A stretch of DNA of 64,000 bases from Deltaproteobacteria bacterium (lineage in GTDB: Bacteria; Desulfobacterota; Syntrophia; Syntrophales; UBA2210), in contig JAFGTS010000006.1 in NCBI GenBank assembly GCA_016933965.1, positions 1-64,000 of the forward strand. The letters are read 5' to 3'. This document shows positions 195-6,038 of the stretch, piece after piece. Each line of letters begins with the position of its first letter. Within the stretch, counting starts at the first letter, position 1. The notes below the pieces were generated by a model. The model worked only from the letters and a program-made list of their open reading frames with translations, did no database searches and was not told the DNA's origin. Position numbers and translations under genes: made by a program.

Positions 195-1094
195 TCACGA
201 TTCGGCGCGCCGAACGAATTCATCCCACCGGCTGTCAACGTGATGTTGAAAGCGATTGAGCTGCTCGATGCTCATCTTCTTGAAACGACTCTGCCGCTCG
301 ACATAGCTGACGACGGGCTGGCGCTTGCCTTTCTTGGCCAGTGTCTCGCTTCTTCCCGTGAACCGGAATTTTCCGTCCTCGATCTCAAAGAGGGGAAACA
401 CGCCCGTTTCCACCGCGAGTTTTCCGATCCGTACCGTGTCCTTTGCCGGGTATCCCCAGCCCGGGGGGCAGGGCGTGTCGATGTGGATATACCGGGTGCC
501 CTTGATCCTCTTTGCCTTGACGAACTTGTCATAAAGATCGGCGGGATAGGCGGGTGATACGGTTGCCAGGTAGGGAATATCATGGGCTTCCATGATCTTG
601 ATCAGGTCCTTCTTTTTTTCCTGCTTGGTCAGGATGGGCGTCGTGGTCGTCAGTGCTCCCATGGGTGTCGCTCCGGACCTCTGGGTTCCCGTGTTCATAT
701 AGGCTTCGTTGTCATAGCAGGCAAAGATGAAATCCGTGTTTCTCTCGGCGGCGCCGCTGAGCGACTGGATTCCCATGTCATAGGTGCCGCCGTCTCCCGT
801 GAGCGCCAGAACGGTGATGTCGGGACGGTTCAGTGCCTTCAGGGCCGCGACTATCCCCGAGGCGGAGGCGGCATTTCCGGCGAAGGTGATGTTGATCGCC
901 GGAACGATGACCGAGCAGACGGGATAAAGCCCGTGGAGAACGCAGAGGCAGCTGGGGGGAATGGCCACGATGGTATTTTCCCGAAGCGCCTTGAGGATGA
1001 AACGATAGGCCAGGGAAAGGCCGCATCCCTGGCAGGATCGGTTGCCGGGAAGTATGTATTCGGTTTCGTTTATTCTGAATATATTTTCCTGCAT
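195..1094 (-). CDS. porB: Pyruvate:ferredoxin oxidoreductase, beta (TPP-binding) subunit
   Basis: This is the beta subunit of the four-subunit pyruvate:ferredoxin oxidoreductase, which binds thiamine diphosphate and one Fe-S cluster and works in the cytoplasm. It has the N-terminal Cys motif (SCQGCG), the TPP signature GDGGTYDMG and the YMNTGTQRS segment typical of PorB rather than of 2-oxoglutarate enzymes. The length of about 299 residues is normal. A TTG at 1115 would also be in frame, but it overlaps the porA stop; the ATG at 1094 follows a GGGG-rich stretch and gives the usual N-terminus. It is last in the porGDAB operon. Assignment to pyruvate rather than another 2-oxoacid rests on motif resemblance. 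Confidence 0.93.
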   Translation of the reverse strand: MQENIFRINETEYILPGNRSCQGCGLSLAYRFILKALRENTIVAIPPSCLCVLHGLYPVCSVIVPAINITFAGNAASASGIVAALKALNRPDITVLALTGDGGTYDMGIQSLSGAAERNTDFIFACYDNEAYMNTGTQRSGATPMGALTTTTPILTKQEKKKDLIKIMEAHDIPYLATVSPAYPADLYDKFVKAKRIKGTRYIHIDTPCPPGWGYPAKDTVRIGKLAVETGVFPLFEIEDGKFRFTGRSETLAKKGKRQPVVSYVERQSRFKKMSIEQLNRFQHHVDSRWDEFVRRAES

Positions 1095-1099
1095 TTCTT

Positions 1100-2308
1100 C
1101 TACCCCGTGTGACAATTCAGCCAGAATGTTTTATTGTCCCGGTCTCCCCGCTCCATCATTTCGATGGAGGACGCCACCGCTTCTGACAATTCCCGTGCCT
1201 TGACGTCACGGCCGCCGATCCCAGAGATGTAGTTGTGAACAGGCGCCTTCACCTCGCTGCCGTAAAGCGCCGATTTCAGGTCCGTCGACATGCCTCCGGT
1301 GAAGCCGTAGCTGACACACTTTTCAAATACGACGATCATCTTCGCCCGGGCGAAGGCGTTTCGAACTTCTGATATCGGGAAGGGACGGAAAACCCTGATG
1401 CCGACTGCACCGGCCTTGATTCCTTCTTTTCGAAGGGCGTCAACGGCGACGGTCGTCTCGGCGGCTATGGAACCCATGCCTGTCAGGAGGATGTCGGCGT
1501 CTTCGGTCAGGTATTCCCATATCATGCCGCCGTGATCACGGCCGAAGAGCCGGGCGAATTCATCGCTCGCCCGCTCGATGACGGGAGCCGAGTCCAGCAG
1601 TGCCGCCTGCAGCTTGTAGCGCATTTCCATGTAGCCGTCGCACAGGACCCCCTCGGCGTTTTCCCGCCGCCAGGGGAAAAAGACGGGGTTGACGGTCCGG
1701 GGGTGTTCCGGCGAAATCTCGGTGTGCGGCTTGTACGGCGGCAGGTATTCCCGCACCGTACTTTCTTCGGGAATTTCCACGGGCATCATGGTGTGGGACA
1801 GAACGAACCCGTCGTAGCAGACCATGACGGGAATATATACCGATTCGGCGATCCGGTAAGCCTGGATGATCGTGTCGATGATCTCCTGGTTGTTGCGGCA
1901 GTACATCTGGATCCACCCGGCGTCCCGTTGGGAAAAGGAATCCTGCTGGTCGTTGAAAATGGACCAGGGTGCCCCTACGCCGCGGTTCACGCAGCACATG
2001 ACGATGGGAAGCCGCGAGCCGGCGGCCCAGTGGATCTGTTCGTGCATGTAGAGAAGCCCGTTGGCGCTCGTCGCGGTGAAGACCCGGGCCCCCACGGTCG
2101 ACGCCGAGATACAGACCGTCAACGCCGAATGTTCACCCTCAACCCGGACATATTCGGCCCGCAGCTCTCCGCTTTCCACGTAGGTCGAGAGCTTTTCCGA
2201 CAGGCTGGTCTGGGGGGTGATCGGATAGGCGGCTATGACATGGGGTTTCACGAGCTTGACCGCCAGGGACGCCGCCTCGTTACCCGTAATGATCCTGACG
2301 TCACTCAT
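1100..2308 (-). CDS. porA: Pyruvate:ferredoxin oxidoreductase, alpha subunit
   Basis: This is the alpha subunit (pyrimidine-binding and core domains) of the ferredoxin-linked pyruvate oxidoreductase, interconverting pyruvate and acetyl-CoA + CO2. Family features seen are the N-terminal GNEAASLAVKLVKP, AAYPITPQTSL, the EGEHSA glutamate region and the FTATSANGLLYMHEQ segment. The length of about 402 residues matches PorA. A GTG at 2314 precedes the ATG at 2308 used here, and both overlap the 3' end of porD, implying translational coupling. In an anaerobe with acs nearby, the enzyme may run either way depending on ferredoxin potential. Confidence 0.94.
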   Translation of the reverse strand: MSDVRIITGNEAASLAVKLVKPHVIAAYPITPQTSLSEKLSTYVESGELRAEYVRVEGEHSALTVCISASTVGARVFTATSANGLLYMHEQIHWAAGSRLPIVMCCVNRGVGAPWSIFNDQQDSFSQRDAGWIQMYCRNNQEIIDTIIQAYRIAESVYIPVMVCYDGFVLSHTMMPVEIPEESTVREYLPPYKPHTEISPEHPRTVNPVFFPWRRENAEGVLCDGYMEMRYKLQAALLDSAPVIERASDEFARLFGRDHGGMIWEYLTEDADILLTGMGSIAAETTVAVDALRKEGIKAGAVGIRVFRPFPISEVRNAFARAKMIVVFEKCVSYGFTGGMSTDLKSALYGSEVKAPVHNYISGIGGRDVKARELSEAVASSIEMMERGDRDNKTFWLNCHTG

Positions 2309-2597
2309 CGTCACATTCCACCTTTCTTACCATCCTGATGGCATTCGGTGGGCATTCTTCCGCGCAGATGCCGCACCCCTTGCAGTAGTCGAGATTTATC
2401 CGCACCGGGATGGACATGGAAACAACGCCGTCGGGACAATAGAGCCAGCAGAGAAAGCAGGCGGCCTTGTTCTTTGAGGAGGGGATGCACTTGGTGTGAT
2501 CGATGACCGGTTTCAGATCGCTCCAGTCCCCCGTTTTCCCTGCTTCACCGATGGCCGGGGAGCAGATACCCGCGATATTCGTGTCTTGTTTCTCCAT
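2301..2597 (-). CDS. porD: Pyruvate:ferredoxin oxidoreductase, delta (ferredoxin-like) subunit
   Basis: This 98-residue protein is the small electron-transfer subunit of the Por complex. The C-terminal part holds a second-cluster motif CKGCGICAEECP and, before it, a wider Cys set (CIPSS...ACFLCWLYCP) that matches the split first [4Fe-4S] ligand set of PorD proteins. It lies 2 nt downstream of the porG stop and overlaps porA, consistent with one transcript. The roughly 30-residue N-terminal extension before the first Cys is usual for PorD. Confidence 0.93.
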   Translation of the reverse strand: MEKQDTNIAGICSPAIGEAGKTGDWSDLKPVIDHTKCIPSSKNKAACFLCWLYCPDGVVSMSIPVRINLDYCKGCGICAEECPPNAIRMVRKVECDDE

Positions 2598-2599
2598 TG

Positions 2600-3166
2600 T
2601 CAGTCTTCCTTCGGTGCGCCGGTTCGCTCGTAGGCGATCCTGATGGCCTCAAAATTTGCGTAAGCCTGATCTTCGGCCATTTTTTTCCTGATCCCCCGCT
2701 GAATATTGTCCAGCGTGATCAATCCGGACATTTTTACAAAGGACCCGACAAGCGGCGTGTTTACCGTCGGCAGGCCGCCGACAAAAAGACGCTGTTCCCG
2801 GGCTATGCGGGCGGCATCGATGACAACGGCGCTGTGGCAGCCGTTCAATGACAGGTCCTCCAGACAGCGCGACGTGTTGATGATGATGGTCCCGGTTTCC
2901 TTCAACCGTTCCGGGATGTTCATGATGTCGAGGAGTGATTCGTCGAGCACGACGGCGTAATCGGCGTATTCGATCTGTGAAAAGGTCCGGATGGGCTCTT
3001 CCGATATTCTCGTTGAGGCGGTCAGCGGGGCCCCCCGTCTCTCCGGACCGAAGGTCGGGGCCGTCGTCACTCCCTTGAAGCCCTGAATATAGGCTGATTC
3101 CGCGACGATCTCCGATGCCAGGACGACACCCTGTCCGCCCCTGCCGTACCAGATGATTTCATACAT
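2600..3166 (-). CDS. porG: Pyruvate:ferredoxin oxidoreductase, gamma subunit
   Basis: This is the CoA-proximal gamma subunit of the Por complex and the first gene of porGDAB. It opens with the family motif YGRGGQGVVLASE and contains the GPERRGAPLTASTRIS region. The ATG at 3166 is chosen because GAGGG lies 6 nt upstream and the preceding in-frame codons belong to the structured leader; the longer reading frame to 3232 would run through the attenuator hairpin. The length of 188 residues is normal. Expression is probably controlled by the leader at 3208-3396. Confidence 0.93.
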   Translation of the reverse strand: MYEIIWYGRGGQGVVLASEIVAESAYIQGFKGVTTAPTFGPERRGAPLTASTRISEEPIRTFSQIEYADYAVVLDESLLDIMNIPERLKETGTIIINTSRCLEDLSLNGCHSAVVIDAARIAREQRLFVGGLPTVNTPLVGSFVKMSGLITLDNIQRGIRKKMAEDQAYANFEAIRIAYERTGAPKED

Positions 3167-3207: not shown

Positions 3208-3241
3208 AAAAAAAAGGCCATGGGTGAGTCACCCATGGCCT
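3208..3241 (-). terminator. Intrinsic terminator inside the por leader (attenuator)
   Basis: Read on the minus strand, AGGCCATGGGTGA and its exact complement (3229-3241 and 3215-3227) form a GC-rich stem around one central base and run directly into eight U residues. It lies 40-75 nt upstream of porG, between promoter and gene, so it can only make sense as a conditional terminator. Its 5' arm (3231-3241) is complementary over 11 nt, with one G-U pair, to 3282-3292 upstream, which would act as antiterminator. Confidence 0.75.
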
Positions 3242-3279
3242 CCTTGCTTCTCTGTTTCTTCCTTTACATCCAACGATGA

Positions 3280-3368
3280 ACAGGCCACGGGTATGTCACC
3301 CTGGTAAGAGCGAGGCACAAGAGGTATAAAAGGCTTTTTCGCTGCACTGTTCGTTCCGTCCGGCCTGT
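3280..3368 (-). ncRNA. Candidate riboswitch aptamer in the por leader
   Basis: On the minus strand, a 7-bp closing stem (ACAGGCC at 3362-3368 with GGCCTGT at 3280-3286) encloses a 5-bp stem (3339-3343 with 3309-3313) and a small hairpin (3298-3304 with 3285-3292). The 3' strand of the closing stem and hairpin contains the antiterminator segment 3282-3292, so folding this domain would release the downstream terminator. I do not recognise a known class: there are no TPP, cobalamin, glycine, SAM or c-di-GMP consensus boxes. Confidence 0.5.
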
Positions 3369-3396
3369 CATGGTATAACCATGAAGAATTCCGCAA

Positions 3397-3425
3397 TTCC
3401 TATACCAAACGGTTCGGAATGTCAA
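3397..3425 (-). promoter_or_regulatory. Predicted promoter of porGDAB
   Basis: TTGACA (3420-3425) and TAGGAA (3397-3402) are separated by 17 nt on the minus strand. The predicted start near 3390 gives a leader of about 225 nt containing the aptamer-like fold and attenuator. The same hexamer pair with the same spacing precedes the outer-membrane protein gene at 7405. Confidence 0.5.
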
Positions 3426-4412: not shown

Positions 4413-6038
4413 CCCGATGACCCATTCCATCTGCTCCAGAAGAGGTGGGAACGTTTCCGGGTTAAGGGCCGATATGGGCGTTGCCCTGTATCGGTCGCAG
4501 AGCGTTTTCAGCAGTGTCTTGTCGGAGACCCGGTCCTCCTTGTTGAAGACAAGGAGCCTGTTCTTGTGCATCAGGTCAAGTTCTTCAAGGATCGTCATGA
4601 CGGCCTCGATATGTTCTTCGAAGTTCGGGTTCGATATATCGACGACGTGAAGAAGCAAGTCCGCTTCGTGGAGTTCTTCCAGTGTGGCGCGGAAAGCCGC
4701 AAAAAGCTCCTTGGGAAGATTTCTGATGAATCCCACCGTGTCGGTGATGATCGCTTCCGTATCCCGGGGAAATCGGAGGCGGGAGCTTTTCGGGTCAAGG
4801 GTGGCGAAGAGCTTGTCTTCTGTCAGGACGGAGCTGTCGGTCAGCATGTTCAGAAGCGTCGATTTGCCGGCGTTCGTGTAGCCGACGATGGAAATGACGG
4901 GAAGTGCCTTTCGCTTCCTTTTTTCTCTTCGTTGGTTCCTGCCCTTCCTGACGGTTTTCAGCTCTTTTTCGAGATGGTTGATCCGGTCGTAGACCCTCCG
5001 CCGGTTGATCTCGAGCTTTGTTTCGCCCGGGCCTCTACCCCCGATGCCGCCGGTGAGCCGGGACATGGCCGTGTTCTTGGTTATCAGGCGGGGGAGCAGA
5101 TATTTGAGCTGGGCCAGTTCCACCTGGATCTTGCCTTCCCTCGAATGCGCCCGTTGTGAGAAAATGTCGAGGATCAGCTGTGTGCGGTCTATGACCCTGA
5201 GCTCGGTGAAATCCGCGATGCAACGGATCTGTGCCGGTGTCAGCTCGTGATCGAAAATGAGAATATTGGCGCCGATCTGCAGGGCCCGGATCACCAGGTC
5301 AGACAGTTTCCCCCTGCCCAGAACATACTTGGGGTCGATCCTGTCCCGGTGCTGAACGATGGAATCGAATACCTCAACACCCGAGGAACGCGCGAGTTCC
5401 CTGAGTTCCGCCATGGAGTTCTCACCGTCAAGACGCAGGTCCGTTTCAACCCTGACCAGGATGGCGCGGTTCCGGGAATCGACCTTCCGCGCCGTCTGTT
5501 TCCGTGCCATTTCGTCTTCCAGGGCCTGGATGAATTCAAGAAAGTCGACTTCGAGTTCCGACGGCCGTGCCGGTTCCATCTGAAACCAGTAAGTTCCCTG
5601 TTGGTTTTCCGGAATGAGATGGGCCGTGTGAACCTTCCCCGGAAGCCCCTTGTCATCCACCTCTATGGCGCAGACCAGATCGAGACGGAGCATGGCGAGG
5701 TCCGTCAGGTCGTCCCTGGTGAGTGATTCGCCGTTCAAATGGGTGTGCAGCAGTCTCAGGCCTTTGAGCCGTGTTGATGAAGCCCTGAATCCATCCAGGT
5801 TCGGTATGACGATTTCTTTGTGATCTCCGCAGATCACGTAGTTGATTTCACCACGTCGGCTCACAAGGATTCCGATCTGACGGTTAATATCGCGCGATAT
5901 TTCGGTCAGGTTTCTGGCGAGATCATGGGGAAGGATGGTCCGTGGCGGGATTTTTCTTCTGTAAAGCTGCTGTATCTTTCTGATTTCCGCGGCTTTCAGC
6001 CCGGTTACGTTACCGTAGATCCTGTTTATTGCCGGCAC
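4383..6038 (-). CDS. hflX: GTPase HflX (ribosome-associated) with N-terminal extension
   Basis: HflX is a GTPase that binds the 50S subunit and rescues or splits stalled and hibernating ribosomes. The G domain is clear: [12 protein letters not shown] (G1), [10 protein letters not shown] (G3) and NKED (G4). The HflX N-domain precedes it, with the glycine-rich [14 protein letters not shown] linker. At 551 residues it is about 120 longer than E. coli HflX because of an N-terminal extension of roughly 160 residues, a form common in other bacterial and archaeal lineages. The start is a GTG at 6038 with a weak GAGG upstream. The last bases overlap a heptanucleotide array. Confidence 0.93.

Follow-up and report, generated by a model that had tools for sequence, protein, structure and literature searches.

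Leucine codons in the leader of a 2-oxoacid:ferredoxin oxidoreductase operon point to ribosome-mediated transcription attenuation in Syntrophales

Which signal governs transcription of the oxidoreductase operon at positions 195-3166 of this DNA? In the window, i.e. the whole stretch of 64,000 nucleotides that was analysed, the genes for the four subunits of a 2-oxoacid:ferredoxin oxidoreductase lie on the minus strand behind a leader. An earlier note had read this leader as a riboswitch-like attenuator with an aptamer-like domain (3280-3368) and had named a thiol ester, CoA, pyruvate or TPP as conceivable ligands. Judged by its sequence and that of its relatives, the leader is very probably a leucine-sensing, ribosome-mediated (leader-peptide) transcription attenuator; a conserved Leu-rich open reading frame (ORF), a covarying antiterminator and the presence of the same element at leuA together lead to this reading. 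The features are listed in Table 1.

Table 1. Features of the leader and of the operon behind it, in window coordinates.
Feature	Position	Strand	Basis
Promoter-like boxes TTGACA (3425-3420) and TATAGG (3404-3399), 15-nt spacer	3399..3425	(-)	sequence; inferred
Putative leader-peptide ORF MTGRTERTVQRKSLLYLLCLALTRVTYPWPVHRWM, 35 codons + TAA	3264..3371	(-)	frame and Leu-rich core conserved in relatives; Leu enrichment against shuffles
Closing stem 5' arm ACAGGCC, overlapping leader codons 2-4	3362..3368	(-)	partly kept, in the window's own family only
Leu control codons CUU UUA UAC CUC UUG UGC CUC GCU CUU	3306..3332	(-)	sequence
Segment 1 CCAGGG, local pairing with segment 2	3299..3304	(-)	predicted hairpin
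Segment 2 ACCCGUGGCCU, 5' strand of the antiterminator, in the 3'-terminal part of the leader ORF	3282..3292	(-)	frames in relatives, covariation
Closing stem 3' arm GGCCUGU (partner 3362-3368), overlapping segment 2	3280..3286	(-)	invariant in 8 near relatives
Segment 3 AGGCCAUGGGU, common to antiterminator and terminator	3231..3241	(-)	sequence, pairing, covariation
Segment 4 ACCCAUGGCCU and U run, 3' arm of the intrinsic terminator	3208..3225	(-)	sequence, pairing conservation
Gamma subunit gene, porC/vorC-type, first of the operon	2600..3166	(-)	TIGR02175 161 bits, above cut-off; PF01558
Delta (ferredoxin) subunit gene	2301..2597	(-)	TIGR02179, above cut-off
Alpha subunit gene	1100..2314	(-)	PorA_Arch 441 bits, below the 550 cut-off; PF01855, PF17147
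Beta (TPP) subunit gene	195..1115	(-)	VOR-type 360 and POR-type 347 bits, both below the 405 cut-off; PF02775

The terminator AGGCCATGGGTGACTCACCCATGGCCT (3241-3215) is a hairpin of 12 bp with a 3-nt loop and about -26 kcal/mol, followed by eight U (3215-3208); it is an intrinsic terminator ahead of the first structural gene and confirms the one described earlier at 3208-3241. All 11 nt of segment 2 (3292-3282) can pair with segment 3 (3241-3231) in the 5' arm of the terminator, one of the pairs being G-U, exactly as had been noted, and the 7-bp closing stem ACAGGCC 3368-3362 / GGCCUGU 3286-3280 is also present. The fold of the whole leader is more stable than that of 200 dinucleotide shuffles (z = -3.3). 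Upstream, boxes resembling -35 and -10 elements occupy the same position in near relatives; a formal promoter scan made no call for the TTGACA/TATAGG boxes at 3399-3425.

What had been taken for an aptamer-like domain at 3280-3368 is the coding region of a Leu-rich leader peptide, an ORF that the earlier note overlooked. It runs from a putative start codon, ATG 3371-3369, to TAA 3266-3264 on the minus strand, and six Leu fall within the nine codons 3332-3306. The Shine-Dalgarno sequence is weak in the window, and an upstream ATG (MVIP-stop) overlaps the ORF start. In a DNA search of 60 relatives, the leader was found at the same operon within the window's family, with conservation peaking around GCCTCGCTCTTA and the terminator. 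The frame was open in every near-relative leader that was read, and the peptides are MTGRTERTVQRKSLLYLLCLALTRVTYPWPVHRWM in the window, MAHTLTGKTVYLRNLLLCLALTGVSYPWPVTYIK in L003 and MTSRRATILLRLHLLCLALLRGECPWPVTCKI in L004. Orthologous operons across the order Syntrophales were gathered by profile (A1) and their upstream regions were then read. They have the same layout, i.e. a Leu-rich peptide, segment 2, a spacer and a GGCCATGGG terminator, with a more extreme Leu-rich leader in other families of the order (e.g. MTMALGLDKARGLMRDLLLLLCLPLLLLGSLPTPIVFRKR in L005), and a few of them are without a recognisable leader. Of 66 loci retrieved from other phyla with more distant PorC homologues, 4 showed a Leu-rich ORF upstream when Leu was counted, and none showed this peptide pattern.

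A metabolite-binding riboswitch, in which a thioester, CoA, pyruvate or TPP would bind an aptamer at 3280-3368 and the antiterminator and terminator would act as expression platform, could draw on the mutually exclusive stems, on the 7-bp closing stem and on long stretches such as GCCUCGCUCUU that are invariant in near relatives. However, no complement to GCCUCGCUCUU is conserved within the leader (median z +0.39), the supposed aptamer varies freely in length and sequence apart from its Leu codons, and all close relatives that were examined have a Leu-rich ORF in this domain. The 'aptamer' folded alone gives z = -1.3, with 21 of 200 shuffles at least as stable. The closing stem does not covary, since its 3' arm, GGCCUGU, is invariant in 8 near relatives, where only one-sided changes are possible; at this place, most of the order differs in sequence. 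In place of a conserved, covarying, non-coding aptamer fold, an ORF was found, together with a stem confined to near relatives. Rfam searches of the whole window at gathering threshold and of the leader at E up to 5 returned nothing relevant, namely no riboswitch family, no T-box and no Leu_leader match, in agreement with the earlier note, which saw none of the consensus boxes of TPP, cobalamin, glycine, SAM, c-di-GMP, fluoride or T-box RNAs; two weak hits for the leader were sRNA families, far under their cut-offs. A riboswitch is scarcely credible here, and instead of the ligands proposed earlier the signal is likely to be charged leucyl-tRNA as read by the ribosome.

The enrichment in leucine is strong and specific to these leaders. 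In the 61 por leaders that have both a terminator and an ORF, the richest stretch of 14 residues has 7.5 Leu on average, against 2.3 in dinucleotide shuffles treated with the same choice of ORF; the average is 2.1 in 14 upstream regions of paralogous porC genes, at which no Leu-rich leader was found. Leucine accounts for 25% of the codons before segment 2 (arginine is next with 11%) and for 9.2% of codons in the genes of the window, and neither Val, Ile nor Ala is enriched in the leader. All six Leu codons are used (UUG 146, CUG 127, CUU 125, CUC 116, UUA 44 and CUA 18 of 576 in total), so it appears that leucine itself is the thing kept over the whole run. The best-conserved stretch of the por leaders is the core UUG-nnn-CUC-GCU-CUU, which is also present in leuA leaders. 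Within it, the Leu codons adjoining segment 2 are CUC and CUU at fixed positions in 45 and 44 of 55 leaders, respectively. This bias (3320-3306 in the window, and its counterparts in relatives) exceeds what leucine identity needs, is common to leuA leaders and has no pairing partner; perhaps the charging of one particular leucine tRNA is sensed. The spacing between the Leu run and segment 2 is variable, mostly 6-22 nt.

The RNA of segment 2 is nearly identical in most leaders, CCCGUCGUUUUUAGG, and is CCCGTGGCC instead in the por leaders of the window's family. Relative to the Leu run, it stands in frame 0, 2 or 1 in 37, 14 and 9 por leaders and in 7, 13 and 1 leuA leaders, and it encodes PVVFR, PSFLG/PWPV or ARRF-stop. 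Since segment 2 is conserved as RNA yet occurs in three frames, two selections can be separated, one on the codons upstream and one on RNA pairing at the end. These frames also bear on a nascent-peptide arrest sensor of the tnaC or erm type, in which a peptide with a conserved PxPV end would stall the ribosome on a small molecule. Such a sensor would suit the recurrence of P-W-P-V or P-S-P-V-V-F-R at the C terminus and the conservation of the CUC-GCU-CUU core beyond leucine identity. However, the C-terminal residues track the RNA, with one and the same segment 2 giving PVVFR, ARRF-stop or PSFLG depending on the leader. Moreover, leuA has the same element, and at other operons with this terminator the leucine run gives way to aromatic, Phe, Trp or Ile runs. 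Peptide arrest is accordingly regarded as highly improbable.

The leaders of one genus of the window's family (g3; L177-L180) are reduced: only two or three Leu codons remain, close to the end (VCLALPGPT, LVSLALPRPT). Their stop codon lies just ahead of an altered segment 2, GGCCTCGTC, which matches an altered segment 3, GATGAGGCC, a compensatory re-design.

Pairing was assessed in an alignment (A2) of 62 distinct por and leuA leaders, from which leaders that could not be placed were excluded. In the antiterminator, 83.5% of cells are paired across the 62 leaders, compared with 32-56% for slid partners, and 42 cells are changed on both sides, compared with 25.5 +/- 3.8 in shuffles, none of 500 reaching as high (relatedness uncorrected). 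The register of segment 2 was tied to the ORF end and selected for the best pairing in the core; this choice biases the percentage paired upwards and, to a smaller degree, the two-sided changes. The far end of the antiterminator covaries as GGAA/UUCC, GAAU/AUUC and GGUA/UACC. In the terminator, 96.6% of cells are paired, with 10 two-sided changes against 1.6 in shuffles (relatedness uncorrected). The proposal that mutually exclusive antiterminator and terminator structures attenuate transcription ahead of a 2-oxoacid:ferredoxin oxidoreductase operon is thus supported, both being kept in relatives well beyond chance. The covariation that the earlier note proposed to look for is borne out for the antiterminator, where two-sided changes exceed all 500 shuffles, and fails for the closing stem with its invariant 3' arm. 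Within the window's family (z -0.4 to -5.5), some leaders show a clear predicted segment 1:2 hairpin; across the order, where the median z is -0.36, it is not conserved.

From this anatomy, a leucine-codon attenuator would operate as follows. The leader ORF would be translated by a ribosome trailing RNA polymerase, and if leucyl-tRNA were scarce the ribosome would stall on the Leu codons 3332-3306. Stalled on the last of these, it would cover segment 1 (3299-3304), its front edge would lie just short of segment 2 (14 nt past the last Leu codon), the segment 2:3 antiterminator could form and the polymerase would continue into porCDAB. With plentiful leucine, the ribosome would reach UAA 3266-3264, over or beside segment 2, segments 3 and 4 would pair and transcription would terminate at the U run 3215-3208. 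With the footprint of a ribosome on the last Leu codon (3308-3306) masked, the full antiterminator remained in the fold; with the mask at the stop, the 3' part of the antiterminator was lost and eight segment 2:segment 3 pairs still formed, so the masking is incomplete in this crude fold model. The masked folds suggest that a stall favours read-through and finished translation favours termination. The switch logic proposed earlier, in which the folded domain leads to the terminator, is replaced by one in which expression is predicted to rise when the ribosome stalls at Leu codons.

The same terminator pattern precedes other amino acid genes. The terminator pattern AGGCCATGG-N4-20-CCATGGCCTTTT occurs at four sites in the 2.85-Mb genome, and a reversed-pattern control at none; the four are the por leader, leuA and two in tandem ahead of DAHP synthase. 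The leuA leader (G000:C28) encodes the Leu-rich MTDTLGRDIRIERTLAALGLLGLLRTIPPVVFRET and has CCCGTCGTTTTCAGG as segment 2 and CCTGAAGGCCATGGG as segment 3, the latter two being the consensus of the order, throughout which leuA leaders of the same design occur. The DAHP synthase leader (G000:C20, about 4450-4660 (+); also L205, L237 and L238) encodes MKTTMGTTYFWFSYYYYFGEPVCPLPLST with YFWFSYYYYF and is followed by two tandem terminators of the GGCCATGG family. Phe-, Tyr/Phe-, Trp- and Leu-rich leaders also precede this terminator in further families of the phylum, where genes for an aminotransferase, DAHP synthase, trp functions and leuA lie behind them. Because the leader amino acid fits the gene of known role in the cases read, leucine is the best guess for the por operon.

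Two further loci and one neighbouring gene were noted on the way. At L240 and L241, a PLP-dependent aminotransferase stands behind the Phe-run leader MKFNNFFFFFFVFTRAHPCP, so that it may be the phenylalanine aminotransferase. At L258 and L259, iorA, the gene for indolepyruvate:ferredoxin oxidoreductase, directly follows the leader MLPNTLELLGFYFFIFRGMKVRP (FYFFIF) with the same terminator; it is a second ferredoxin oxidoreductase whose leader amino acids fit the enzyme. A second LeuA-like protein adjoins leuA in the window's genome (G000:C28:17043-18572 (-); 238 bits, under the leuA cut-off) and is probably a citramalate synthase.

In Enterobacteriaceae, a leu attenuator (leuL; Rfam Leu_leader) controls leuA and allied genes, and it shares with the por leader a leader ORF rich in Leu codons, a terminator and an alternative antiterminator. 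The por leader differs from it in giving no Rfam sequence match, in having segment 2 within or over the ORF end and in its target, a 2-oxoacid:ferredoxin oxidoreductase. The control codons differ as well: the Salmonella typhimurium leader depends on CUA, as treated in a discussion of leu control codons (PMC1183508), whereas CUA is the rarest Leu codon here (18/576). The leuA leaders of the same genome and order share the layout and the Leu-rich peptide and differ in controlling 2-isopropylmalate synthase. In actinobacteria, the LEU element places a Leu-run leader peptide upstream of leuA and uses a pseudoknot and Shine-Dalgarno pairing (PMC1262725), whereas the por leader uses a terminator/antiterminator pair. 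The iorA leader of L258 and L259, from another family of the phylum, has the terminator family and a 2-oxoacid:ferredoxin oxidoreductase target in common with the por leader; its peptide is aromatic (FYFFIF) and its enzyme acts on indolepyruvate, whereas the por leader is Leu-rich. The mechanism is a textbook one and the target apparently unreported; in the open-access literature searched, there was no paper on leucine attenuation of this oxidoreductase target.

What the controlled enzyme does is a separate question. The alpha subunit scores practically the same with the POR alpha model (370 bits) as with the VOR alpha model (368 bits), and since POR and VOR models score alike, the substrate cannot be derived from homology. 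The leader suggests that the target is probably an enzyme of the leucine pathway. That anaerobes carboxylate isovalerate to form leucine was already known in the 1960s (Allison et al. 1962, 1966, as cited in PMC7356843). With about even chances, the operon would encode a branched-chain 2-oxoacid:ferredoxin oxidoreductase that converts isovaleryl-CoA, CO2 and reduced ferredoxin to 2-oxoisocaproate under leucine attenuation, and that replaces LeuA in many Syntrophales. Among 91 good genomes of the order, leuA is missing in 18 of the 49 that carry the operon and in 4 of the 42 that do not, giving an odds ratio of 5.5 (p = 0.003, uncorrected for phylogeny).

The leucine attenuator would also stand if the enzyme were an ordinary pyruvate synthase that feeds leucine synthesis, with no isovalerate route. 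This is the main alternative, though of less than even probability. PorA_Arch is the best alpha model (441 bits), the closest relative of solved structure is 9bt4, a heterotetrameric pyruvate:ferredoxin oxidoreductase, and the window's genome has leuA, ilvC and ilvD. However, the leader is enriched for Leu alone and not for Val, Ile or Ala, there is a paralogous porC that has no such leader, the beta-subunit scores slightly favour the VOR type, and the por operon is carried by 18 of the 22 good genomes that are without leuA. If the branched-chain oxidoreductase is the correct reading, the operon would be an additional route in the window's genome, since leuA, ilvC and ilvD are retained there.

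As a caution, coding leaders may be mistaken for orphan riboswitches. For the organisms, the leader would link leucine supply to an enzyme that carries the annotation 'pyruvate oxidoreductase', and so provides a functional clue beyond homology. The por operon becomes a concrete gene candidate for the carboxylation of isovalerate towards leucine in syntrophic bacteria, and the leader makes this idea testable. If it is true, the por operon, together with iorA under its aromatic leader, would point to a class of amino-acid-attenuated biosynthetic oxidoreductases.
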